NCBI GenBank assembly: GCA_017477245.1
Contig: JAFUWY010000035.1
Span: 17,152-81,151 of the forward strand
Origin: Bacteroidales bacterium
GTDB taxonomy: Bacteria > Bacteroidota > Bacteroidia > Bacteroidales > UBA932
DNA length: 64,000 nucleotides
Direction: 5' to 3'
Made by a program: the position numbers and the translations under genes. The notes under the pieces were generated by a model. That model saw only the letters and a list, made by a program, of their open reading frames with translations. It was not told where the DNA came from and made no database searches. Numbering within the stretch: position 1 is the first letter of the stretch; the number at the start of each line of letters is the position of its first letter. Of this stretch, positions 16,589-55,495 are shown in pieces.

Positions 16589-18307
16589 CTATTCTTTCAC
16601 TGCGCGGAAGTCGGGAAGGTCCCCGACGGAGAAGTTGGCGATGTATGCGGCCTTGCCGATAACATTTTCTTCTGCCATCCGGGCGTAGACGCGGGCGCTG
16701 CCGGCGAACAGGTCGGGGGCGAGGCTGGCGTCGTGCAGCAGGAGCAGCGACATGATGATCTCGCCGGTCATGTCGTAGAGCCTGCGGGCGAGGAAGTCCT
16801 GCGCCTCCTGGTTGTCCAGGGCCTTGACGGCTTCGATGCTCTGCTCGTAGAGCCCCACCAGCTTGGAGACCTTCTCCTTGAGCGGCGCGAATTCCGGCGC
16901 GAAGGTCTCTTCCAGCATCTCCCGGATGATCCCGAGGTAGGTCCCGTTCATCATGTAGCGGGCGGCGGCGACCACCTGCAGCTGCGTCGTGCCCTCGTAG
17001 ATCGAGAAGATGCGCGCGTCGCGCATCAGGCGCTGGCACTTGTATTCCATGATGAAGCCGGATCCGCCGTGCACGGAGACGGCGTCGTAGGCGTTCTGGT
17101 TGGCATATTCGGAGGTCATGCCCTTGCAGATCGGGGTGAAGGCGTCCGCGAGGCGGTTGTATTTCTTGCATTCCTGGCGCTGCTCCGGCGTCAGCTTGGT
17201 CCCGCAGCGCTCGATGTCTTCCAGGGCCTTGTAGACGTCCACGTAGGAGGCGGTCTTGTAGAGGAGCGAGCGGCCGGCGTCGAGCTTGGCCTTCATCCGG
17301 CTCAGCATGTCGTAGACGCCGGGGAAGTGCTCGATGGTCTGGCCGAACTGGGCGCGGACGGAGGCGTAGCTGCGGGCTTCGTTCAGGGCTTCCTGGCTGA
17401 GGCCGGTGCTCTGGGCGCCGATGCCGAGGCGGGCGCCGTTCATCAGCGCCATGACGTACTTGATCAGGCCCAGGCGCGTGCTGCCCACGAGTTCGGCCTT
17501 GGCGTCCTTGTAGGTCAGCTCGCAGGTCGGGGAGCCGTGGATGCCGAGCTTGTGCTCGATGTGTCGGACGTTGACGCCGCCCTGCCGCTTGTCATAGATG
17601 AACATGGACAGGCCGCGGCCGTCGCGGGTGCCTTCCTCGCTGCGGGCCAGGACCAGGTGGATGTCCGAATCGCCGTTGGTAATGAAGCGCTTGACGCCGT
17701 TGAGCCGCCAGCAGTTCTCCTTCTCGTCGAAGGTGGCCTTGAGCATGACGCGCTGCAGGTCGGAGCCGGCGTCGGGCTCGGTCAGGTCCATGGACATCGT
17801 CTCCCCGGCGCACACGCGCGGAATGAAGCGCTCGCGCTGGTCGTCGTCGGCGAACTCGTAGAGGGTCTCGGCGCAGCTCTGCAGGCTCCAGATGTTCTGG
17901 AAGCCGGCGTCCGCCGCGGAGACGATCTCGCTGGCCATGGAGAAGACCACGGCGGGGCAGTTGAGCCCGCCGTAGCGGCGCGGCATCGTGATGCCCCAGA
18001 GACCGGCCTTGCGGGTCGCCTCGAGGTTCTCGAGCGTCTTGGAGGCATATTTCATGCGGCCGTCCTCGAGGTGCGGACCTTCGAGGTCCACGCTCTCGGA
18101 ATTGGGCTCGATGACATTGGCTGCCACGTCTCCGACGATCTCCAGCAGGCGTTTGTAGTTCTCGATGCAGTCCTCGTGGTCCACGGGGGCGTAGTCATAG
18201 TCCTTGCTCTCGCTGAAACCCTTCTCCTTGAGCTCGGTGATGCGGCGCATCAGCGGGTCCTGCAGGTAGAAGGCGATTTCGGGATGGTCCGTATAGTAGT
18301 TGGCCAT
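16589..18307 (-). CDS. Acyl-CoA dehydrogenase (FAD), with C-terminal extension
   Basis: A 572-aa flavoprotein. The N-terminal helical domain is followed by the middle beta domain (MDLTEPDAGSDLQ, FITNGDSDIH) and the C-terminal helical domain with ASVRAQFGQ and the catalytic glutamate in IYEGTTQLQ. It is about 190 residues longer than the short/medium-chain enzymes, because of an extra C-terminal helical region (from about residue 450) as in the larger ACAD subfamily. It oxidises acyl-CoA to 2-enoyl-CoA or runs in reverse, passing electrons to the EtfAB encoded just upstream. The ATG at 18307 is chosen: it is 2 bp after the etfA stop. Chain length cannot be predicted. Confidence 0.92.
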   Translation of the reverse strand: MANYYTDHPEIAFYLQDPLMRRITELKEKGFSESKDYDYAPVDHEDCIENYKRLLEIVGDVAANVIEPNSESVDLEGPHLEDGRMKYASKTLENLEATRKAGLWGITMPRRYGGLNCPAVVFSMASEIVSAADAGFQNIWSLQSCAETLYEFADDDQRERFIPRVCAGETMSMDLTEPDAGSDLQRVMLKATFDEKENCWRLNGVKRFITNGDSDIHLVLARSEEGTRDGRGLSMFIYDKRQGGVNVRHIEHKLGIHGSPTCELTYKDAKAELVGSTRLGLIKYVMALMNGARLGIGAQSTGLSQEALNEARSYASVRAQFGQTIEHFPGVYDMLSRMKAKLDAGRSLLYKTASYVDVYKALEDIERCGTKLTPEQRQECKKYNRLADAFTPICKGMTSEYANQNAYDAVSVHGGSGFIMEYKCQRLMRDARIFSIYEGTTQLQVVAAARYMMNGTYLGIIREMLEETFAPEFAPLKEKVSKLVGLYEQSIEAVKALDNQEAQDFLARRLYDMTGEIIMSLLLLHDASLAPDLFAGSARVYARMAEENVIGKAAYIANFSVGDLPDFRAVKE

Positions 18308-44327: not shown

Positions 44328-44357
44328 GTGTGAAGCGGTGTTAAATTGGTATATGGA

Positions 44358-45701
44358 CTATTGTTTGATGCCGTTGACGTAAGTCTCGTTCACGACAAGG
44401 TTGTCGATGGCGCTGCGCTCCCAGTCGGGGCGGCCGGTCTGCACCTTGACGTTGTCGAAGGTGATGTCGTTGAGCGTGTACTGCTCGTCCACGCGGCGCA
44501 CGTTCGCGAAGCTGCGGCACTCCAGGTCGAGGTCCTTGAAGACGATGTGCTCGCCGTAGGAGCGGGGGATGTCCTCGCGGCCCTTCAGGTCGAAGAACTG
44601 GGTCCAGGGCGCGCAGCTGACCACGGCGGCGCAGCTGCCCTTGATGTTCTCGATGCGGATGTACTCGTAGTGTTGCGGGGTGTCCGGGCGCATCTTGAGC
44701 TGGAGGAGGGTCTGGCCCTGCTCCACGGTGCAGTTGCGCACGATGATGTTGCGGGTCTGGATGCACTCGCTGCCGCAGGTCACGCAGCTGCCCGTCGTGT
44801 GGTCGAAGAAGACATCCTCCACGAGGATGTTCTCGTTGGCGCCGTTGACCGGGTCCTGGTCGGCCCAGGGGCCCTTGCCGCCCTTGAAGCAGACGGCGTC
44901 GTCGTTGACCGTGATGCGGCAGCCCTTGACGAGCACGTTGGTGCAGGCGTCGAGGTCCACGCCGTCCGCGCTCGCGGAGCGGATCGGGGCCACGGGCGAG
45001 AAGAGGCGCAGGCCGATGACCTTGACGTGGTCGGACTTGTAGATGTGGCAGGTCCAGAACGGGCTGTTCTGCAGGGTGGCCTCGGCGATGGTGACGTTCT
45101 TGCTGTGCGAGACGTGCAGCAGGCGCGGGCGTTGCTCATCCTTGTTGGTGCACTGCGGGTTCCACTGGCGGCGCAGGCGGAAGGCCTGCCAGTAGGGGCT
45201 GCCGTTGCCGTCGATGGTGCCGGGGCCCGTGAGGGTGAAGCCGTCCAGGTGGTCGACGTTGATCAGGGCGGAGAAATACTTGCAGATCTCGCCCTCGATG
45301 CGGGTCTCGATGATCGGGAAGTCGCCGATGAACTCGCTGCCCAGCAGCACGGCGCCGCGGCTCATGTAGAGGTGCGTGCCCTGCTTGAAGAAGAGGGCGC
45401 CGGTCTTGTAGATGCCCTCCGGGATCACGACCACGCCGCCGCCTTCCGCGGCTGCCTTGTCGATCACGCCCTGGATGAGGGCGGTCTGCTTGGTATTCGG
45501 GTCGCTGATGGCGCCGAAGTCCCGGATGTTGTAGGTCTTGCCGAGGGTCTCCGGAGCGGGGACCTCGCTCTGGAGGAACCATTCGGGCACGGCCGTGCCG
45601 TCCGGCCAGAGGAGCGGCTGCTCCTTGACTTTCTTGGGGGTCTTGGCCCCTGCCGGCAGCACGACGGCCAGCGCGAGCAGGGAGAGGAGGAGTGTTCTCA
45701 T
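44358..45701 (-). CDS. GH28 family glycoside hydrolase (rhamnogalacturonidase-like)
   Basis: A 447-aa exported beta-helix enzyme (signal peptide MRTLLLSLLALAVVLPAGA; ATG at 45701 preferred over 45710). GH28 motifs: SADGVDLDAC, VNDDAVCFKGG and LKMRPD. The usual histidine motif is altered (TGSCVTCGSE rather than GHG), as seen in rhamnogalacturonidase-type GH28 members. It is the first PUL gene downstream of the toxin island, 35 bp from the second immunity-like gene. Confidence 0.88.
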   Translation of the reverse strand: MRTLLLSLLALAVVLPAGAKTPKKVKEQPLLWPDGTAVPEWFLQSEVPAPETLGKTYNIRDFGAISDPNTKQTALIQGVIDKAAAEGGGVVVIPEGIYKTGALFFKQGTHLYMSRGAVLLGSEFIGDFPIIETRIEGEICKYFSALINVDHLDGFTLTGPGTIDGNGSPYWQAFRLRRQWNPQCTNKDEQRPRLLHVSHSKNVTIAEATLQNSPFWTCHIYKSDHVKVIGLRLFSPVAPIRSASADGVDLDACTNVLVKGCRITVNDDAVCFKGGKGPWADQDPVNGANENILVEDVFFDHTTGSCVTCGSECIQTRNIIVRNCTVEQGQTLLQLKMRPDTPQHYEYIRIENIKGSCAAVVSCAPWTQFFDLKGREDIPRSYGEHIVFKDLDLECRSFANVRRVDEQYTLNDITFDNVKVQTGRPDWERSAIDNLVVNETYVNGIKQ

Positions 45702-45736
45702 AATAAACAAAAGAGGAGATGTAACTGTTTAAAAAC

Positions 45737-46324
45737 TTAATTATTTAACTGACAAGGAGAATAAAACGTATCCCAGAAGAAGGATGGGCCGATTATATAT
45801 AGCCACCCCATTGAAGAAACTAGTCTCCCATTCTTTATCTCAATTCTAATAGATACATCATCTGGGACATCAGTCGCAAGAGGTTCATCATATTTATTGT
45901 AAATGTAGGTGAATATATGTGGATTATTTCTTATTATTCTTTCGAGTAAATTATCAGCAATATAAGAATTATTGCTTTGACTTGAATCGGTATTAATCAT
46001 TAAGTGAGATTCATGTGTTGAAGAATAAGCATCTACGTATGCAGAAAGAGAATCTAGTCTTACTAATAGGTCAGTATAAAGGATATGAATGACAATAGTA
46101 TCTTTTTCAATATTATAAGTAAAGTTATCAGCTTGAAGAGCTTGGGTTATTGTACATAGTATCTTTTCATGTATCAATCTTTTCGGAGATTCTATAATAC
46201 CATGATTGTGGACTTGACAAGAATCATTAGCTTTCTTCAACAAGCAAGTTAGGGACTCTTGGGGTGTAGTTGAAAAATGTTCCATGAGAACAAAGAAACT
46301 TATCAGTAAAGGGAGGATTCTCAT
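45737..46324 (-). CDS. Probable immunity protein for the spare RHS toxin tip (unknown family)
   Basis: A 195-aa protein I do not recognise. It is AT-rich in codon use unlike all PUL genes. The N-terminus (MRILPLLISFFVLMEHFS) looks like a signal peptide; the rest is acidic and hydrophilic with no known motif. It starts 6 bp after the stop of the toxin-tip gene, the position expected for a cognate immunity gene in polymorphic toxin loci. Function is inferred from position alone. Confidence 0.55.
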   Translation of the reverse strand: MRILPLLISFFVLMEHFSTTPQESLTCLLKKANDSCQVHNHGIIESPKRLIHEKILCTITQALQADNFTYNIEKDTIVIHILYTDLLVRLDSLSAYVDAYSSTHESHLMINTDSSQSNNSYIADNLLERIIRNNPHIFTYIYNKYDEPLATDVPDDVSIRIEIKNGRLVSSMGWLYIIGPSFFWDTFYSPCQLNN

Positions 46325-46330
46325 GATAAA

Positions 46331-47725
46331 TCAATATTTAAAACGAATGCTCGGGGGAATCATATTATAAGTAGTTTTCCCCTGGTTATTGTAATATAAG
46401 CTTTTCCCAGAGCTATCTATAATTCGGGACATAACCGTATAAGGAGAATCATTTCCAATAAGATATGTTGAGCGTAGCGGGTAGTTATGCTCCGCGCGTA
46501 TCATGTTTTCTATATGCGTGGAAAACAGTTCATTAAAAGGAATATCTTTTTGTAAGGTATAATCATCAAGTGTTCCTCTAGGAATCCAGATATCATTATT
46601 CATTGTTCCCCTCATGTCGTCTAGCGCGTGAGCAAGTTCATGCCCAAGAGAAATGAATGGAGCAGAAAAACTACCATTGTCAAAAGCCCAACCAACAGCT
46701 TTTTGATTAGGAAAGTATTCATTGCTCCTAAAGGATTCTATTCGAATTCTTGTATTGTAAGCAACCAGTTCTTTTATCATGGAGGAACCTGTATTTCCTT
46801 CCATCAAGGTTGATAAAGCCCTAGACGTTTCAAGAATATGCTTTTCCGTTCCAGAGTACTTGTTCATATTGTCATCGAAAAAGCCCCATTCGCCATCATG
46901 CTCAAGCCATTCAAACTCGGTAAACGAGTTGTCTTCGTTTAAGCTTCTAACGACAATTTTGTTTCCCGTCGGATCCACAAACTTCATTGGATTCCCAGCA
47001 CAGAAGAGATACGGAGAGTGGAGATAATATTTCTCCGCGAGCGGGTCCTGCGAGATCCATCGTCCGAGGGCGGGGTCGTAGAGGCGTGCGCCGAAGTCGT
47101 TGACGTTGAAGGAGGCGGCGGGGTTCCAGTCCTTGCCCTGGTACTTTTCGGGCTGTAAGGCTGTGTTGGAGCCTGTCGGCAACGGTCCGCCGAGCGGGTA
47201 GTAGTCGTCGGTCTCCAGGACCGTTCCGGCATCGTTCACGACCGCGCGGACGGAACCCAGGTGGTCCCGGACGAAGTACCTCCGGGCGGAGTTCCCGCTG
47301 GCGAGGTCCACGTATCCGCCGTCGAGCCGCAGGCGTTTGGCGGCACGTGTACCGCTGCCCTCCTTCTCCAGCACAAGGTCGCCGCACCAGTCGATGGTGG
47401 TCGTGGTGCCGGAGACCGTACGCACTTCCCGGAGCTTGGAGCCGTCGGCGGCGTAGTAGTAGTTGATCGTCGATCCGGTCGAGAAGGTGACGGTCTGCGG
47501 GAGGTCGATCTCGTTCCAGGTGACGGAGGAGATCTTGCGTCCGGTGTCCGAGGTCAGTGCCCCGTTGGCATTGTAGGTACTGGTGCCGGCGGCAGCGTTG
47601 AAGTTCCCGCTGTAGCCCTCCGAACCTGAATCAGACACCGACGTCACCTGTTTCCCGGTGCGGGAGAGGTTTACGTTATGTGATAATCCATCGATTAGCA
47701 AACAGATATAAGAATTGATCAACAT
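46331..47725 (-). CDS. Orphan RHS C-terminal cassette with HExxH (M91-like) metallopeptidase toxin tip
   Basis: A 464-aa open frame. Residues 1-20 are unrelated to RHS. Residues about 21-252 reproduce the RHS core end of the large upstream gene almost residue for residue, ending in FCAGNPMKFVDPTG, the usual core boundary. Residues about 253-464 are a different tip with zinc motif HELAH (H362, E363, H366) and a downstream FSTHIENMIRAEHN segment, as in M91/NleD-like effector proteases. The tip is AT-rich. The frame has its own ATG, 6 bp after imm1's stop, but no secretion signal or RHS N-terminal shell, so it fits a silent or donor cassette for recombination into the main gene. A pseudogene remnant is possible, but the frame is intact. 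Confidence 0.8.
   Translation of the reverse strand: MLINSYICLLIDGLSHNVNLSRTGKQVTSVSDSGSEGYSGNFNAAAGTSTYNANGALTSDTGRKISSVTWNEIDLPQTVTFSTGSTINYYYAADGSKLREVRTVSGTTTTIDWCGDLVLEKEGSGTRAAKRLRLDGGYVDLASGNSARRYFVRDHLGSVRAVVNDAGTVLETDDYYPLGGPLPTGSNTALQPEKYQGKDWNPAASFNVNDFGARLYDPALGRWISQDPLAEKYYLHSPYLFCAGNPMKFVDPTGNKIVVRSLNEDNSFTEFEWLEHDGEWGFFDDNMNKYSGTEKHILETSRALSTLMEGNTGSSMIKELVAYNTRIRIESFRSNEYFPNQKAVGWAFDNGSFSAPFISLGHELAHALDDMRGTMNNDIWIPRGTLDDYTLQKDIPFNELFSTHIENMIRAEHNYPLRSTYLIGNDSPYTVMSRIIDSSGKSLYYNNQGKTTYNMIPPSIRFKY
46971..47665 (-). repeat. Direct repeat, copy in the orphan cassette
   Basis: About 695 bp near-identical to 49398-50092. The start (GGATCCAC...ACTTCATTGG) and end (CCCGGTGCGGG) of the similarity are offset by exactly 2427 bp at both ends, so there is no net indel between copies. 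Only scattered substitutions are seen. Confidence 0.85.
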
Positions 47726-47731
47726 TTATTG

Positions 47732-48721
47732 TTAATTCGCCGGTTTAGTTAAATTAGTTAAATAAACATAGAACTGTAGAAACTTGGGATTATATTTGAT
47801 TATATACGACTCTTCACCAACTTGGATAGACCGTTGAATAATTGGTTCGCCTTCTTTGTAAATAGCGAATTCAATACTCGGATAATTAGTTTTGACAGGA
47901 TTGGGATTAATTACCCTGTTGTATTCAATTGGTTCGTCTTTAGAAACGAAGAAAACATCAATACAACTTGCAATATAGTTTATGCATTCCTTATCATGCA
48001 AATGCTTTTCAAACGGAGGGGAAAGGCTTTGGATGATCAATTCTTTTTTTGCATTATCCATTAAAACGGTACAACTCCATGAGTAGTGGATGGAAAGACT
48101 ATCCCATACAAAACCAATGTGTTCTTTTAGTGGCTGTGGGGCCGACGGAGGTCTTCGGAATCTTGGATCATTTACCAGAGAATCAATGAGACCCAAAAAC
48201 TCCAAAAAACGTGGGTTATACGTGATATCGTATTGCTCTTCTCCAATTTGGATTGTTTTATTGATTGTCTGTTTGTTAAATGCCCTGATCTCAAAAGATA
48301 ATCGTGAATAATCCGTTATGATCGGATCCTCACGTATTACTCTGCTGTATTCAATCTCTTCTGTCTGTTGGATAAAAAAAACATTAATACATTGAATAAA
48401 GTAATCTATGATATCTGTATCATCAATCTCTTTTTCACTGATAGGACTGGTCACAAGAATCCTATTATTAGAATACTCTATGGAATAATTGTCAGTGTCA
48501 GAAAGATCTATATAATTTACTGTAACACTAGATAGTTTCGGAATCGAATCAAACTTCTCAATGCCGTTCTTTTGTGTACTGTCCATCAAAACCGCAGAAG
48601 ATTTTGGAATCGAATTAGGATTCTCAGAACTGTTCTTTGTATTTGAAACCGACCTAATACTCGAAGACAGATTACAAGAAACACACACGATAATTATTAT
48701 CAAAAATAGGAGAGACCTCAT
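47732..48721 (-). CDS. Probable immunity lipoprotein for the main RHS toxin, with internal duplication
   Basis: A 329-aa AT-rich protein of unknown family. The leader MRSLLFLIIIIVCVSC ends in a lipobox (VCVSC), so it is likely anchored in the envelope. Two copies of a domain of about 110-120 aa are recognisable: EYSRVIREDPI / EYNRVINPNPV, then IQIGEEQYDITYNPRFLEF / IQVGEESYIIKYNPKFLQF. It begins 15 bp after the stop of the RHS gene, the standard place for a cognate immunity gene. The ATG at 48721 is preferred to the TTG further up. Confidence 0.6.
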   Translation of the reverse strand: MRSLLFLIIIIVCVSCNLSSSIRSVSNTKNSSENPNSIPKSSAVLMDSTQKNGIEKFDSIPKLSSVTVNYIDLSDTDNYSIEYSNNRILVTSPISEKEIDDTDIIDYFIQCINVFFIQQTEEIEYSRVIREDPIITDYSRLSFEIRAFNKQTINKTIQIGEEQYDITYNPRFLEFLGLIDSLVNDPRFRRPPSAPQPLKEHIGFVWDSLSIHYSWSCTVLMDNAKKELIIQSLSPPFEKHLHDKECINYIASCIDVFFVSKDEPIEYNRVINPNPVKTNYPSIEFAIYKEGEPIIQRSIQVGEESYIIKYNPKFLQFYVYLTNLTKPAN

Positions 48722-48736
48722 ATATGGCGACAATGA

Positions 48737-51700
48737 TTAATTTTTCTTATACTTCTTATACAAGTTTCTGTATGGAGGATCGACAGTGGTTCGCCCCGTC
48801 TCAATATTTGTATACTTTAATAATTGCTCCAGATTGAATGCTTTATATGATGGTGTCGTTTTGTCCCACAACAATTTATAATTGATAACGTTTTTATATG
48901 CTAAGCGATGAGATTTGTATCGGTCATGATTGCCTTTCATTATATGAGAGTACCATTCGTGAACAACGACAGATGATTGGATATTCTCGACAGTAGTTTC
49001 GTAAGAATACTTATCTGTTCCAGTAATGGTTTTAGCATTAATTCTTGAATTCCAAGAGCCCTTATCGGTGGAAGAGAAACCTATTATACCATTACTTAAT
49101 GTAGACAAAGAGAATACCTCATCATAAACTCGCAGGCCTTCCATTTGAGAAGCGATATGAGTCCATATTTTTGACCTTGCGGTTTCCGTCAGTTCATTTC
49201 TAACAGTATCATAAGAGTTAGCTTCTCCCCGTTGAGTCAAGATATTAAAGCTTTCATTATAAAGCAAGTCAGATGCTGATACATTTGAGAAGTCTTTGTC
49301 TCCGTCATATATAATAACGATACCAGTAAAACCTTCAAGTGTATTTCCACGAAAAGACCCATCTGATCCATACACGGGGTTAATTGTGGTCCCATCCGGA
49401 TCCACGAACTTCATTGGATTCCCCGCACAGAAGAGATACGGAGACTGTGGATAGTACTTCTCTGCCATCGGATCCTGCGAGAGCCATCGTCCGAAGGCTG
49501 GGTCGTAGAGGCGTGCGCCGAAGTCGTAGACGTTGAAGGAGGCGGCGGTGTTCCAGTCCTTGCCCTGGTACTTTTCGGGCTGTAAGGCTGTGTTGGAGCC
49601 AGTGGGCAACGGTCCGCCCAGCGGGTAGTAGTCGTCGGTCTCCAGGACAGTCCCGGCGTCGTTCACGACCGCGCGGACGGAACCCAGGTGGTCCCGGACG
49701 AAGTACCTCCGGGCGGAGTTGCCGCTGGCCAAATCCACGTATCCGCCGTCGAGACGCAGGCGTTTGGCGGCACGTGTACCGCTGCCCACCTTCTCCAGCA
49801 CAAGGTCGCCGCACCAGTCGATGGTGTTCGTGGTGCCGGAGACCGTACGCTCTTCCCGGAGTTTGGAGCCGTCAGCTGCATAGTAGTAGTTGATCGTCGA
49901 TCCGTTGGAGAACGTGACGGTCTGCGGGAGATCGATCTCGTTCCAGGTGATGGAGGAGATCTTGCGCCCGGTGTCCGAGGTCAGTGCTCCGTTGGCATTG
50001 TAGGTACTGGTGCCGGCAGCAGCGTTGAAATCCCCGCTATAGGCCGCCGATCCAGTGTCTGAGACAGAGGTCAGCTGGTTCCCGGTGCGGGTGAAGGTCA
50101 GGTTGTCCACGATTTCCCAGGTCGAAGTCCCGGTCCTCCCGTATCGTTGCAGCCCGGTGATATTGCCGTTGCGGTCATAGCCGGTGACTTTCTCGGTGTA
50201 GTGGTCGTTGACCAAGGATACTTCCTTGTAGACTGCATCCTTGAGCCGGTGGAGCCCGTCGTAGGTGAAGTCATAGGCCTTCCGTGTGTCGCCGCTGCTG
50301 CGCTTCCAACCGGAGGCGGAGACATCGGAACCGAAAGTGTATGCCAGGTCCTGGATGAAGGAGGGATGTGTGATGCCCGTCGTCCGGCTGCGGATGTCGT
50401 AGGTATAGGATTCGGCATTCGTAGTGCTTCCTGCAAACTTCCTCGACGAGAGCCGTCCGAGGTCGTCATAGGTATAGGTGGCGAGGGTCGTCGTGCCTGT
50501 CCCGGGCAGCGTCAAGGTCTCGGCGGTGAGCCGGTCGACGTGGTCGTAGGACCAGGTGCGTGTCTGGCTGGCCGGCGTGCCGCTGACCGAGGACGTGCGC
50601 GTCGTAGTGACGGAGGCGGGTTGTCCTGTGTATGTGTAGGTCGTCACGCGGGTATCATATCCCAGGTTATCATAGTGGCCTATGACTTCCTTGGTGACCT
50701 GCCCGCGGCTGTCGTAGTACCAGGCTCGGGGGACGTTGCTGGAGGACGATGCGCCGAGTACGCGAAGCTCCTGCCCGGTCTGCCGACCGATGCACCAGGA
50801 ACCCGTGGACGGGAAATAGCTTGACGGGAATCCTGTCGTCCCGGCGAAGGAGTAGTTGTCGTAGTAGTTCTTGACCAGGACCGTGGGAGAAGTGGTGTTG
50901 GACTGGCCGGTGCATTCGCCTTCGGTAACGATGCGCCCGAGGTTGTCATAGGTGAAGTAGTGCCAGCGGTTGGTGCCGGCCGCCCTGCGGCGGCCGTCCT
51001 GGACATAGGCGGGACGGTCGTGCGCGTCGTAGACATACTGCACATAATCGGCTCCGGGCAGTTGCTTCTTCGAGAGGTTGCCGCGGTCGTCGTAGGTGTA
51101 CTGGAAGGCGAACTTCGCCAGGAGGTCCGTCCCCGTTGCGACCTGATACTCGGGCTGGAGGACGAACCGGAGCTGCCCGCGGTCGTCGTAGACGTAGTAG
51201 GTGTCGCTGTAGGTGGAGGTCCCATCCACCTGCCGAGTCAAGACGGTACGTCCCAGTTTGTCGGTGAAGGTGAGGCTGACGGCCCCGTCCTCGTCGGTGG
51301 TGCGGACGACGGAGAGAGTGCCGGCGGCGTAGTTGCCGTTTTGGGACAGCCCGGAACTGCCCACATAGTAGTACTTGCAGGCGGTAACCCCGGAAGCGGT
51401 GTTGCCGAGCCATTCGGTGCGGACGGGATGTCCTCCTCCGGAAGCGGCATACCAGGCGGCGCCGGGGCCGTATGCGTAGGGGACGCGGTCGAGGGAGGAG
51501 GCTTCCAGGACCTGCTCGGAGAATGGCCGGGTTTCCGAAGTGCCGTAGGTGGAACTGGCGGCGGACGAGAAAGCGGAAGCGGACAGGAAGGAGGAAGAAG
51601 TCACGACGGGCAGCCAGGTACGCGTCTGCCTTCCGGCCAGATCATATTCCGTCCTGGTGAGCAGGTTGGACTGTGTGGGCGTCGCCTGTGAGGCCAGTTC

Positions 51701-54700
51701 CTGAATCTGCCGTCCGAGTCCGTCATACCATACGGAGGATTCGATGCGCTGGGTGTTGGATACGCCGGCATTCTTCTTGATGGACCGCAGGACGCGGTTA
51801 GGTGTCCAGGTCGTCCCCGAGCCGGAAGCGTAAGAATAAGAGAAGGTCTCGATCTCGCCCTGGCTGTCCGCTGCACGGGAGAGGCGTCCCAGGGCATCGT
51901 AGATATAGAACTTCTCGGCACCATCCGGGGCAGTTTCCGTCGAGATGCCCATGCCGGGAACATATTCATAGGTGGTAACGAGGTGCGGGAAAGAGGCCAA
52001 CGACGTGGGCGACACGATGGCGGAGCGCAGTGAGGTTAGGTAGGTGGACGCGTTGGATGTGGTGCAGGACGCCAGGTTGTTGATGAGGGTGGTACCTGCG
52101 GCAGACTGGACCTGGCTCCAGGTCAGGCCTTCGATGACCGCCACTGGGTAGCGTTTGTTATATCCCCAGAGGAAGACGAACTTGCGTCCGTCGACAGTGG
52201 TGGCGTAGCGCAGGTTGCCGGCATTGTCGTATTGGTCATAGGTAACCAGCGTACGTGTCGTACTGCCAAGTTTCTCCTTGAGGGTGTCCGGGAGGTGCAT
52301 GGTGCCGTTAAAGACACCGTAGGTCGTCTCCCGGGTTCGCTGGAGGGTGTTGCCGTAATAATACTCTTCCTTGACGGGAGTATCCACCCGGTTGGCGTCG
52401 GTCATGGCCGTGTAGGGCGAGTCAGACAGCGCGAAGGGATAGGTGTAGACTGTCTTGGAGACCTTGCCGTCGCTGTTGGTCGTGGACTCGGTGAGAGGCT
52501 TGAGCGTGCGGAGTCCGTCTGTATCGTATGTGTAGGTGGTCGTGATGGAGACACCGGTAGTGTGGTCGGTAGCCGTTTTTCCTGTGAGTTGGCGAAGTCG
52601 CCGATAACCGTTACAAGAGGTCGCGATGACGTTGTCCCGGAAAGTGTCCTCATCCGGATACGGAGCAAATGCGTCAGGATCGCTTTGTGCATAAATGACT
52701 CCGATCCCTTTGCGCACAAGACGGACACCGGTCTGGAAGTTTGCAGTTGCGGGTTCCAGTTCCGTGTATGAATAATCTTCGGTGAGTTGCAACGTGTAAT
52801 CGCCCCCTGCGTTGGATATGTAGACTTCCTTCTTTGTCAGCAAGGCGGGAACGGTACCTTCGTCGTTGTTATAAAGGTTGGAATAAAACCTGTAATGAAG
52901 AGGAAGGTTATACCAGTCTTCGTCGGAGCCGGGATAGGTACTTTCCTCATCCAGCATATAGTGATAGATATTTTTCCCAAGATTAGCGGAGGCCGTCCCT
53001 CCGACATATTCGGTGACCGTGCTGTAAAAAATGGGAGAGCCGCTTCTTCCGGTCAGAGGAAGGACAGGAGAAGCTGTGGCGAAGAAGTGCTCTTTAACCC
53101 CGTCACACTGAGAGTACTGACCGTCATTGAGATAATACCAGACATCATCGTACCAAGAATACAGGTCATCTGAGATTGGTATTGTTTCATGCCCGCCAGC
53201 GTAACTATATGAATGTTTCTCCAATAGGGTACCATCATAATCATAGTTGGAAACGGAAGAGATTCTCAAACCTCCAATTATGCTTGTCCCTATCCGGTTT
53301 GCCTCAAAGGCAAAAGTGGTTTTTCCTTTGGTAGGATAGGTAATGGTCTCCAGCGAACACATTTTCATGGCAGGTTCGTAGGGCGTCCGATTCGCGGTAA
53401 CCCGCCCAGGAATGATTCCGTTCGGGATATAATACTCATTGAAACGTGCATTGTTGAATCCCCAGTAGTCTTCGTTCGTGTACGAGTCTGTTCCCGATGG
53501 AGTTGTCCCAATACCAGAATTATAATGGTTGGGAGGCGAAGTGGAGTTGTAAGAGAATGTCCATTCTTCTGCCGGAGAAGCAGAGGAACCTTTAATGGAG
53601 ATGCCGTTCAGTTTTAGGCGATAGTTCTTAACCGTTGAACCGAAATAAGAACTGTTGTCAAAAATGACTTGGCGGCGAACTGAACCGGCTTCTGTGACAG
53701 TCAGGGAAGTAAGACGCTCCTTTTGTGCATCCAGCCGATCAGTAGCATAGGAAAAAGAGATGGAGATGTTGTTCCAAGTAATGGAATTCAAGCGGGGGGA
53801 AACAAAATAGTAGGTTGTGTACGTTGGTTGAAGGGTAGAGATATTGCCGGTGTGTTGCCTATATGCCACATCTCCGGCCATATGGATTTGTTCCCAATAG
53901 AGTGTTTCTCCTTGCTCGAAGTATTCTCCCCGGTATCGGATATTGTGTCCTTGCCCCTGGGTATAGTTGAACTGGATAATATTGTGTCGGGTTCCGGTGA
54001 TGATCTTGGAGAGATACCAGGCGCTGGTGACAATCATGGCTCCTCCGGCGCTGCAAGACTCCGTATTCTCGAAGAAGTATTGTGATCCGTCTGTATCTGT
54101 AATCATGAACCCGGAAGAAGTTTTTTCTATCTTTATGGGATCGTGAGGAATGGACAGGAACTGGTTGGTGGAAGCGGCATTCATGCGGAAGAGGCCGGCC
54201 TTGCCGCCGAAATTGTATGAGTAACGGTCGCTCTCGCTGTCGTGATAAATGCTTCCGGCGAAAACGCTGTTCCAGAATTGTCCGCCATGTCCGGCATATA
54301 GATGGGTCTGAACGTCGGATTTGGTCTTGAAAAACAAGTTATAATTTGCACCTGCGTAATCTGGAGCAGCACATACGGAACGGGAAATAACTCCGCCGGC
54401 GTTGAGCACCCAACCGAGCCCGACCGGTGTGGAGACATCGGTGACCTTGATGCCGGAGGCGTGATAGGAGAGGGATATCGGGAGTTGATAGTCTCCGGTG
54501 TCGAGGGTATAGAGCGGGATCTCGATCTTGGGAACGCCGGTAGAGTAGTCGACGGGATACTCGCCATAACGGGCGTAAGCGGCTGACTGCGGACTGGGAT
54601 GAACCACCGACTTCAGCAGGTCGTCGGAGACGGAGCGGGTGTGCGCCTCCTGGCGGACCTGCCGGACTGAGTCTCGCCGAGATGTGGTGTCGCGGCGGGA

Positions 54701-54778
54701 AATCGTCTCAGGTTGTGCGGATGCAGTTGCTGAAAACAAACAGCCGGCACATATTAAAAATACTAGAACCCGTTTCAT
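48737..54778 (-). CDS. Secreted RHS-repeat polymorphic toxin with putative metallopeptidase tip
   Basis: A 2013-aa protein. It has a signal peptide (MKRVLVFLICAGCLFSATASA) and a Bacteroidota RHS/SpvB-like N-terminal region (DYSTGVPKIEIPLY, GLGWVLNAGGVISR). Many YD/RHS repeats follow (YDDRGQLRF, YDDLGRLSSR, YDGLHRLKDA), then the RHS core ending in RLYDPAFGRWLSQDP...CAGNPMKFVDPDG near residue 1793. The last 220 residues are a variable tip with HEWYSH (H1940, E1941, H1945), an HExxxH pattern like that of TldD; a zincin-type protease is plausible. RHS shells encapsulate and deliver such tips to competitors or hosts. The tip and much of the first 700 residues are AT-richer than flanking PUL genes. 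It starts 18 bp after the preceding PUL gene. Confidence 0.88.
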   Translation of the reverse strand: MKRVLVFLICAGCLFSATASAQPETISRRDTTSRRDSVRQVRQEAHTRSVSDDLLKSVVHPSPQSAAYARYGEYPVDYSTGVPKIEIPLYTLDTGDYQLPISLSYHASGIKVTDVSTPVGLGWVLNAGGVISRSVCAAPDYAGANYNLFFKTKSDVQTHLYAGHGGQFWNSVFAGSIYHDSESDRYSYNFGGKAGLFRMNAASTNQFLSIPHDPIKIEKTSSGFMITDTDGSQYFFENTESCSAGGAMIVTSAWYLSKIITGTRHNIIQFNYTQGQGHNIRYRGEYFEQGETLYWEQIHMAGDVAYRQHTGNISTLQPTYTTYYFVSPRLNSITWNNISISFSYATDRLDAQKERLTSLTVTEAGSVRRQVIFDNSSYFGSTVKNYRLKLNGISIKGSSASPAEEWTFSYNSTSPPNHYNSGIGTTPSGTDSYTNEDYWGFNNARFNEYYIPNGIIPGRVTANRTPYEPAMKMCSLETITYPTKGKTTFAFEANRIGTSIIGGLRISSVSNYDYDGTLLEKHSYSYAGGHETIPISDDLYSWYDDVWYYLNDGQYSQCDGVKEHFFATASPVLPLTGRSGSPIFYSTVTEYVGGTASANLGKNIYHYMLDEESTYPGSDEDWYNLPLHYRFYSNLYNNDEGTVPALLTKKEVYISNAGGDYTLQLTEDYSYTELEPATANFQTGVRLVRKGIGVIYAQSDPDAFAPYPDEDTFRDNVIATSCNGYRRLRQLTGKTATDHTTGVSITTTYTYDTDGLRTLKPLTESTTNSDGKVSKTVYTYPFALSDSPYTAMTDANRVDTPVKEEYYYGNTLQRTRETTYGVFNGTMHLPDTLKEKLGSTTRTLVTYDQYDNAGNLRYATTVDGRKFVFLWGYNKRYPVAVIEGLTWSQVQSAAGTTLINNLASCTTSNASTYLTSLRSAIVSPTSLASFPHLVTTYEYVPGMGISTETAPDGAEKFYIYDALGRLSRAADSQGEIETFSYSYASGSGTTWTPNRVLRSIKKNAGVSNTQRIESSVWYDGLGRQIQELASQATPTQSNLLTRTEYDLAGRQTRTWLPVVTSSSFLSASAFSSAASSTYGTSETRPFSEQVLEASSLDRVPYAYGPGAAWYAASGGGHPVRTEWLGNTASGVTACKYYYVGSSGLSQNGNYAAGTLSVVRTTDEDGAVSLTFTDKLGRTVLTRQVDGTSTYSDTYYVYDDRGQLRFVLQPEYQVATGTDLLAKFAFQYTYDDRGNLSKKQLPGADYVQYVYDAHDRPAYVQDGRRRAAGTNRWHYFTYDNLGRIVTEGECTGQSNTTSPTVLVKNYYDNYSFAGTTGFPSSYFPSTGSWCIGRQTGQELRVLGASSSSNVPRAWYYDSRGQVTKEVIGHYDNLGYDTRVTTYTYTGQPASVTTTRTSSVSGTPASQTRTWSYDHVDRLTAETLTLPGTGTTTLATYTYDDLGRLSSRKFAGSTTNAESYTYDIRSRTTGITHPSFIQDLAYTFGSDVSASGWKRSSGDTRKAYDFTYDGLHRLKDAVYKEVSLVNDHYTEKVTGYDRNGNITGLQRYGRTGTSTWEIVDNLTFTRTGNQLTSVSDTGSAAYSGDFNAAAGTSTYNANGALTSDTGRKISSITWNEIDLPQTVTFSNGSTINYYYAADGSKLREERTVSGTTNTIDWCGDLVLEKVGSGTRAAKRLRLDGGYVDLASGNSARRYFVRDHLGSVRAVVNDAGTVLETDDYYPLGGPLPTGSNTALQPEKYQGKDWNTAASFNVYDFGARLYDPAFGRWLSQDPMAEKYYPQSPYLFCAGNPMKFVDPDGTTINPVYGSDGSFRGNTLEGFTGIVIIYDGDKDFSNVSASDLLYNESFNILTQRGEANSYDTVRNELTETARSKIWTHIASQMEGLRVYDEVFSLSTLSNGIIGFSSTDKGSWNSRINAKTITGTDKYSYETTVENIQSSVVVHEWYSHIMKGNHDRYKSHRLAYKNVINYKLLWDKTTPSYKAFNLEQLLKYTNIETGRTTVDPPYRNLYKKYKKN
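49398..50092 (-). repeat. Direct repeat, copy in the main RHS gene
   Basis: The partner of 46971-47665. It encodes the last ~230 residues of the RHS core, just before the variable toxin tip. Beyond the left end (towards 48737) the two sequences are unrelated, as expected for swapped toxin tips; beyond the right end they also diverge. Confidence 0.85.
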
Positions 54779-54796
54779 CTCTTAAGAGAATCTAGA

Positions 54797-55495
54797 TTAA
54801 TTAACCTTTACAATAAATCCCCGGAGCTGCGTCCGCGAGAGGGTGGTGCGGAAGCCGAACCAGCCGCGCGTGAGCGGCTCGGGGTCAGTGTAGTCGAAGA
54901 GGGTCTGCCCGTCGATGGTATAGGTCACCCGGCCGCCCTGGCAGGCCAGCCGGATGTGGTACCAGTGGTTGGGCTGCAGCAGGTGCGCCGGATCGGTGTA
55001 TTCCTGCAGCAGGTCGGGGTTGGGCATGCCGTTGTAACGGCGGAAGCGGGTGGTGCTGTTGTAGTTGCCGCCGTAGCCGACGTAGTAGAGTTGCAGCGTG
55101 GCGCAGTTGGCGAATTTGCCGCCGCGCTCCACGCTCCGCGCGAAAATGTCCTCCGCGGCCGGGTCCGTGGCCATCCAGAAGCAGTTGAGGTCGCTCAGGC
55201 GGTCGCCTTCGCGCTCCTGCATCACGCGGGCCTCGTACTCGATCACGACGTCGCCTTCCATCGGCTTGCGGTACCACAGCGTCAGACCCTTGGGGGCGAG
55301 GATCTCGACGCCCTCACCGACGAAGTCCACCTTGTAGTCCGGCGATTCCGACTCGACCATCCAGTAGCTGTCGAATGCCTTGATGTTCAGTCCGTCCGGG
55401 TACTTCTCGTAGCCGGACAGCAGCCAGGCGATCCCGGCTCCGAGGAGCAGGACCAGGATGCCGGAGACGATACCGATTTTCGTGCCTTGTTTCAT
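54797..55495 (-). CDS. Membrane-anchored jelly-roll protein (DUF6250/LamG-like) of the pectin locus
   Basis: A 232-aa protein with one N-terminal membrane helix (IGIVSGILVLLLGAGIAWLL) and a concanavalin-like beta-sandwich suggested by LWYRKPMEGDVVIEYEARVM, NCFWMATDPAAEDIF, HWYHIRLACQGGRVTYTIDGQ and GWFGFRTTLSRTQLRGF. The pattern resembles DUF6250-type proteins found with pectin or rhamnogalacturonan enzymes in Bacteroidota; the match is from memory and not certain. It may bind or cleave a glycan. It starts 1 bp after the GH2 stop and is followed directly by the RHS island. Confidence 0.6.
   Translation of the reverse strand: MKQGTKIGIVSGILVLLLGAGIAWLLSGYEKYPDGLNIKAFDSYWMVESESPDYKVDFVGEGVEILAPKGLTLWYRKPMEGDVVIEYEARVMQEREGDRLSDLNCFWMATDPAAEDIFARSVERGGKFANCATLQLYYVGYGGNYNSTTRFRRYNGMPNPDLLQEYTDPAHLLQPNHWYHIRLACQGGRVTYTIDGQTLFDYTDPEPLTRGWFGFRTTLSRTQLRGFIVKVN

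Follow-up and report, generated by a model that had tools for sequence, protein, structure and literature searches.

A probable polymorphic RHS toxin locus with an orphan toxin-tip cassette in a Bacteroidales genome

A 64,000 nt stretch of DNA from a Bacteroidales bacterium (GTDB Bacteroidota; Bacteroidia; Bacteroidales; UBA932), corresponding to positions 17,152 to 81,151 of the forward strand of contig JAFUWY010000035.1 in assembly GCA_017477245.1 and referred to here as the window, carries a large RHS gene followed by three small genes, one of which contains a second copy of the RHS core end. This raises the question of whether the four genes together form a polymorphic toxin system. In the published scheme for such systems, a shell with its toxin tip is followed by an immunity gene and then by standalone tip-immunity cassettes, and recombination at the 3' end is proposed to swap tip and immunity gene together (Zhang 2012, PMC3482391). 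We consider it likely, with a probability of roughly 0.87, that the locus is a system of this kind, consisting of an RHS shell with a first tip (tip 1), its immunity gene (imm1), an orphan cassette with a second tip (tip 2) and a candidate second immunity gene (imm2). The initial annotation had reached the same reading, which is supported by the assignment of tip 2 to a curated toxin family (PF14891), by the way in which imm1 tracks tip 1 across genomes, and by the reuse of the same core on a second contig of this genome (C34). The layout matches that of the toxin-immunity cassettes of the published scheme, with the difference that tip 1, imm1 and imm2 here fall below every Pfam cut-off.

Layout of the locus, shared core and genomic setting

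The four genes are codirectional on the minus strand (45737-54778) and are separated by gaps of 15, 6 and 6 nt according to their ORF coordinates, in the order RHS shell with tip 1, imm1, orphan cassette with tip 2, and imm2 (Table 1). The coordinates, lengths and gaps agree with those of the initial annotation. The start of imm1 is the ATG at 48721, from which the gap of 15 nt follows; an in-frame TTG is also present at 48733. The two small genes described earlier as AT-rich are indeed so, with a GC content of 0.348 for imm1 and 0.326 for imm2, and the tips are similar (0.365 for tip 1 and 0.381 for tip 2), compared to 0.62-0.63 in the two core stretches and 0.613 in the whole window.

Table 1. 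Coordinates of the features of the RHS locus in the window and of the second array on contig C34.
Feature	Sequence	Coordinates	Strand	Remarks
RHS shell gene	window	48737..54778	-	2013 aa; N-terminal signal peptide (by eye)
Tip 1, C-terminal toxin domain of RHS shell	window	48740..49396	-	
Predicted metal motif HEWYSH of tip 1	window	48944..48961	-	residues 148-153 of the 221-aa query
RHS core end in shell, common to cassette	window	49397..50094	-	698 nt, 92%
imm1 lipoprotein, two tandem domains	window	47732..48721	-	pieces in alignment A4: 48132-48547 and 47735-48130
Orphan toxin cassette	window	46331..47725	-	464 aa; ~20 unrelated residues, core end, tip 2
Cassette core block	window	46970..47667	-	homologous to 49397-50094
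Tip 2, Peptidase_M91 (Tox-HopH1)	window	46334..46969	-	HELAH at 46628-46642
imm2, candidate tip-2 immunity protein	window	45737..46324	-	exported, 195 aa; signal sequence (by eye)
Block without counterpart in one congener	window	44353..54827		toxin locus and GH28 gene
Shell fragment, N-terminal	C34	9812-10168		
Cassette with tip 3	C34	7576-8568		sub-cut-off Ntox44 match, E = 0.0024
Lipoprotein-like protein behind tip 3	C34	7010-7585		
Cassette with tip-2 paralogue	C34	5905-7092		tip 47-49% identical
imm2 paralogue	C34	5226-5930		

Scans against Pfam and NCBIfam place DUF6443 at residues 990-1114 of the RHS protein (E = 1.4e-25) and Rhs_assc_core at residues 1717-1796 (E = 4e-14). The protein thus has the composition of a secreted shell with an RHS core and a variable tip, where secretion is predicted from the signal sequence by eye. 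The core repeats of the shell and the cassette are identical at 640 of 698 nt without a single gap, and the similarity extends as far as the VDP codons in each copy, beyond which the tip families are unrelated (profile comparison probability of 0.2%). The cassette therefore begins with a copy of the core end, after ~20 unrelated residues, and continues into a different tip, as had been noticed from the sequence. The differences between the two core copies are mostly at third codon positions (11, 7 and 40 at positions 1, 2 and 3, respectively), and 19 of the 230 residues differ, a pattern that suggests evolution of both copies as coding sequence.

The same core was found with other tips in a second array of this genome, on contig C34 (locus L041, 5226-10168; Table 1). 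The C34 core pieces are 83-97% identical to the window core at the DNA level, both cores have internal deletions, and each tip is followed by a small exported-looking protein. A core end shared between the shell and orphan tip-immunity cassettes is thus seen both in the window and on C34. Tip 1 is attached to this core in the shell and other tips in three cassettes, and a single RHS core type is joined to four tips of three kinds within one genome. A different core (38-39% protein identity) is found in an RHS frame of 1185 aa on contig C11 (L042, 4236-10507), where the RHS frame is followed by a small gene, an orphan cassette and another small gene. The tip of this RHS frame contains the sequence HEVGHSLGLH. 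A degraded-looking RHS locus with fragmented frames is located on contig C16 of the same genome (L043, 5173-7171).

The toxin locus lies inside a pectin-type polysaccharide-utilisation locus with GH28, GH2, RGL11, SusD and TonB-receptor genes. The neighbouring DUF6250 gene is present in one of the 64 congeners searched (L051), in which 24 nt separate the aligned end of this gene from that of its neighbour in the utilisation locus. The 10.5 kb block of the window that holds the toxin locus has no counterpart in 19 kb of this congener, a single comparison that is consistent with gain and loss alike. The RHS protein has no N-terminal PAAR domain of the kind seen in T6SS Rhs effectors, since DUF6443 and a weak RHS repeat are all that the Pfam scan of the whole protein reports. 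VipB of the type VI secretion system was not found in the genome in a search with a positive E. coli control. The TssC model, which covers Bacteroidota systems, was silent in the genome and in its controls alike, and the controls of the search for a type IX secretion marker were silent. No machinery that would deliver the shell was identified, VipB being the search with a working control, and this counts against the reading of the locus as a toxin system.

Tip 1 and its six-residue motif

Searches of Pfam, NCBIfam and the PDB sequences with tip 1 gave no match. Relatives were found at four loci in the genome contigs, in 10 of 393 genomes of the order, in four of 295 of the class and in five of 296 of the phylum, two of which had already been found in the class search; each of the three genome counts includes the genome studied here, and the counts take in matches that are decayed or cover the linker only. 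Fourteen tips were compared, and 12 of them have a six-residue motif, HExx[GS]H. The motif reads HEWYSH in tip 1 and in loci L002, L003, L004 and L046, and HExxGH in the other seven (L005, L006, L007, L008, L010, L011 and L014). The two most distant tips (L021 and L044), both found by the tip-1 profile, have the usual five-residue HExxH and then His or Glu at the equivalent position. The next conserved place after the six-residue motif is His in 11 of the 12 tips and Asn in L010; in tip 1 it is residue 165, 12 residues past the motif. His148, Glu149 and His153 are invariant in a 10-row alignment (A3). The tip of L007 is interrupted by a stop; this locus is absent from the alignment and from the fold prediction, and it enters the motif count solely with its second piece, which is unbroken. 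The motif count leaves out L009, L013, L022 and L047, which are mainly linker matches with other tips by eye, as well as L020 and L048, neither of which was read through.

Tip 1 itself does not match Tox-MPTase2 (PF15638) at the curated cut-off of that family, and it has HEWYSH in place of HExxH. Since L044 matches the Tox-MPTase2 model and L005 scores below its cut-off (E = 4.4e-4, 20.4 bits, with a cut-off of 25), we read tip 1, on the basis of sequence, as a probable distant relative of Tox-MPTase2 with one extra residue between the two histidines. Tox-MPTase2 is an RHS-associated toxin of Bacteroidetes (PMC3482391), and the tip-1 relatives align with it over the metal motif and the [HE]xxx[YF] segment behind this motif, although Tox-MPTase2 has HExxH as opposed to the HExx[GS]H of the tip-1 family.

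An AlphaFold model of tip 1 (mean pLDDT of 79.7, pTM of 0.82) places the motif at the end of a predicted helix (residues 138-154), with His165 opening the next one. The model has no significant or usable fold match in the PDB or BFVD, and therefore none to a known zincin. This result, together with the departure of HExxxH from the usual HExxH, would suit a different metal-dependent enzyme that uses the same His/Glu set, for example a nuclease. We consider such an enzyme to be on the unlikely side, given the ties to Tox-MPTase2 through L005, and through L021 and L044 with their HExxH and equivalent His or Glu. Furthermore, HExxxH is reported as a metal site in other peptidases: HEXXGH is described as a hallmark of DPP III (family M49) (PMC5805324) and HExxxH is reported in TMCP tubulin carboxypeptidases (PMC10499314). 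The six-residue motif is the sole link of tip 1 to either group. The M49 enzymes named in that source are ~550-738 aa long and have the Glu of an EECKAD-type motif as the next ligand (PMC5805324), whereas tip 1 is ~220 aa long with a conserved His 12 residues on, and no match between tip 1 and M49 was seen in the Pfam scans, in PDB sequences or among the fold matches listed. Tip 1 would be a zinc-binding peptidase by prediction, and with its six-residue HExxxH its peptidase nature is less certain than that of tip 2. Should the HExx[GS]H of tip 1 bind zinc, this tip would provide a compact case of an unusual metal motif, known chiefly from M49 enzymes of far greater size.

Tip 2 and the orphan cassette

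Tip 2 (residues 253-464 of the cassette) matches Peptidase_M91 (PF14891) above the cut-off of that family (E = 1.5e-10, 42.1 bits, with a cut-off of 25). We take PF14891 to be the Tox-HopH1 family, and a match to the XopG/HopH model (E = 3.6e-5, below its cut-off) is in support of this. Tip 2 also has the HExxH of the family as HELAH, in which H110, E111 and H114 are invariant in eight alignment rows. The profile search that the initial annotation had suggested as a check on this tip therefore leads to a curated family of peptidase toxins. The earlier claim that the locus has two different metallopeptidase tips stands for tip 2, with its standard HExxH, and is less secure for tip 1, with its HEWYSH. 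The HopH1-like metallopeptidase domain is listed as Tox-HopH1 and is common to HopH1 and NleD, type III effectors aimed at plants and animals (PMC3482391). Here, in contrast, the domain forms the tip of an orphan cassette of RHS type, next to which lies a candidate immunity gene.

The arrangement of main and orphan genes has a close counterpart in Salmonella, where rhs-main, rhsI-main, rhs-CT-orphan and rhsI-orphan follow one another and the repeated stretch is 95% identical over 522 bp (Koskiniemi 2014, PMC3967940). The order is the same in the window, with 92% identity over 698 bp and in another phylum. This length and identity would allow exchange as in the published scheme. Recombination within the ~700 bp of shared sequence would join tip 2 to the shell and place imm2 directly behind this tip, and the exchange would either remove tip 1 and imm1 or keep both following a duplication. 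The evidence for fusion in Salmonella comes from experiments (PMC3967940), whereas for the locus studied here we infer the exchange from the DNA sequence alone. The cassette, a truncated core with an M91 tip and a candidate immunity gene behind it, would then be a silent reserve for the secreted shell, from which the tip in use would be released as the toxic part.

The cassette might also be translated as it stands, given its own ATG behind imm1, which counts against its role as a reserve. If so, it could be a separately translated and unsecreted protein, such as the toxin of an intracellular toxin-antitoxin pair or a regulator. The ATG sits 6 nt past the stop codon of imm1 and the frame is open for 464 aa, with the bias of core changes towards third positions described above, and the frame of the tip-2 paralogue on C34 likewise has an ATG, 1 nt past the preceding stop. 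We nevertheless regard this alternative as distinctly improbable. The cassette has no signal peptide (by eye), the start of the core differs in each of the three cassettes of the genome, and the two on C34 have the internal deletions noted above. In addition, the signal sequence that imm2 carries at its N terminus (by eye) would keep it from meeting a toxin in the cytoplasm. The orphan Rhs toxin of Salmonella is likewise described as having no initiation and export signals until it is fused (PMC3967940).

Candidate immunity genes and their pairing with the tips

The two halves of imm1 are a tandem duplicate (43% identity across 91 aa, E = 1e-26 in a pairwise comparison), and homologues elsewhere are 187-208 aa long with a single such domain. 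The Cys that closes the signal stretch is invariant in a five-row alignment of the family. Both halves match a domain profile built from them and four other sequences. A search of 1520 ORFs from 48 loci with this profile gave matches in six distinct places only (the window, L002, L003, L004, L012 and L046), each directly behind tip 1 or a remnant of it; the profile had been built from sequences of five of these, and L046 is independent of it (E = 2.2e-25). The distance from the tip stop to the imm1 start nearest the signal sequence is 14 nt in L002, 13 nt in L003, 1 nt in L004, 1 nt in L046 and 2 nt in L012, and for the homologues of L003 and L004 there are further in-frame starts upstream, from which the gene would overlap the tip. 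In L012 (1155-2030) the tip-1 fragment has decayed and contains stops while the frame of the single-domain imm1 homologue is intact, as expected of an orphan immunity gene. Within the order, the domain was found in two of 393 genomes (the one studied here and that of L012), both with tip 1 or its remnant. A conserved pairing of tip and immunity gene, which the initial annotation had proposed to look for in related genomes, is thus found for tip 1: an imm1 homologue adjoins all four of its close relatives and one decayed tip in a fifth genome. The imm1 profile misses the genes behind the distant tip-1 relatives (L005, L006, L007, L008, L010, L011 and L014), which counts against the reading of the locus as a toxin system. 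These genes are small and mostly signal-bearing by eye.

Neither imm1 nor imm2 has a family assignment and both look exported, as might proteins that help the RHS shell to be secreted or attached, yet this role is scarcely credible, since imm1 tracks the tip and not the core (it lies behind tip 1 on core ends that differ by eye in L002, L003, L004 and L046), the same core on C34 precedes other small proteins, and in the L012 genome (G256) the tip has decayed with the imm1 homologue behind it still intact. The export signals of both candidate immunity proteins suggest that they act in the envelope, which we take to be the likeliest place of toxin neutralisation. The imm1 lipoprotein would sit in the cell envelope with its two domains and protect the cell from tip 1. 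If immunity in the envelope is true, both peptidase tips would be neutralised outside the cytoplasm. PMC3482391 describes polyimmunity proteins, single polypeptides that contain several immunity domains in tandem, and imm1 is likewise a tandem of two such domains, with the differences that its domain is uncatalogued, that it is a lipoprotein and that its two copies are of one type.

The initial annotation suggested that tip 1 and both immunity families may be undescribed, and indeed none of the three reaches a Pfam or NCBIfam cut-off; the L012 imm1 homologue has a sub-cut-off match to DUF6567 (23.9 bits, with a cut-off of 27, over the N-terminal 68 residues). The design of the locus is ordinary. 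Its novelty lies in the tip-1 subfamily with HExx[GS]H, together with two immunity families that have no Pfam or NCBIfam entry, and these add to the catalogue of interbacterial toxins of uncultured Bacteroidota. Tentatively, we go one step further and propose that tip 1 founds an unregistered RHS metallopeptidase family, with a zinc site made of HExx[GS]H and the downstream His, that an unregistered family of lipoproteins neutralises it in the envelope, and that the duplicated imm1 is two-headed, covering tip 1 and an allelic variant.

The imm2 protein has a relative in the gene behind the tip-2 paralogue on C34 (24% identity across 156 aa, E = 6e-8 in a pairwise comparison), and matches of an imm2 profile among the gathered loci are confined to imm2 and this paralogue, which also counts against the main reading. 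Seven other genomes contain M91 tips related to tip 2 (eight of 295 including the one studied here), at eight places. In seven of these eight loci a different exported family lies behind the M91 tip, which argues against the pairing of tip 2 with imm2; no gene of this family was seen behind the eighth (L032). The family does not align with imm2 (hhalign probability of 1.9%). Because the only relative found for imm2 is on C34 and another family lies behind seven of the eight M91 tips, the pairing of tip 2 with imm2 is plausible and much less supported than that of tip 1 with imm1, being represented by one paralogous pair in the same genome. Of the spare tip and second immunity gene described by the initial annotation, the tip is confirmed as a member of M91 and the immunity gene is the weaker part.

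The exported family behind the M91 tips (L024-L030) is without a Pfam match. Six of its seven loci supplied an M91-immunity profile, with L030 left out of the alignment as nearly identical to L029, and the gene behind the distant tip-1 relative L008 has a weak match to this profile (E = 0.002).
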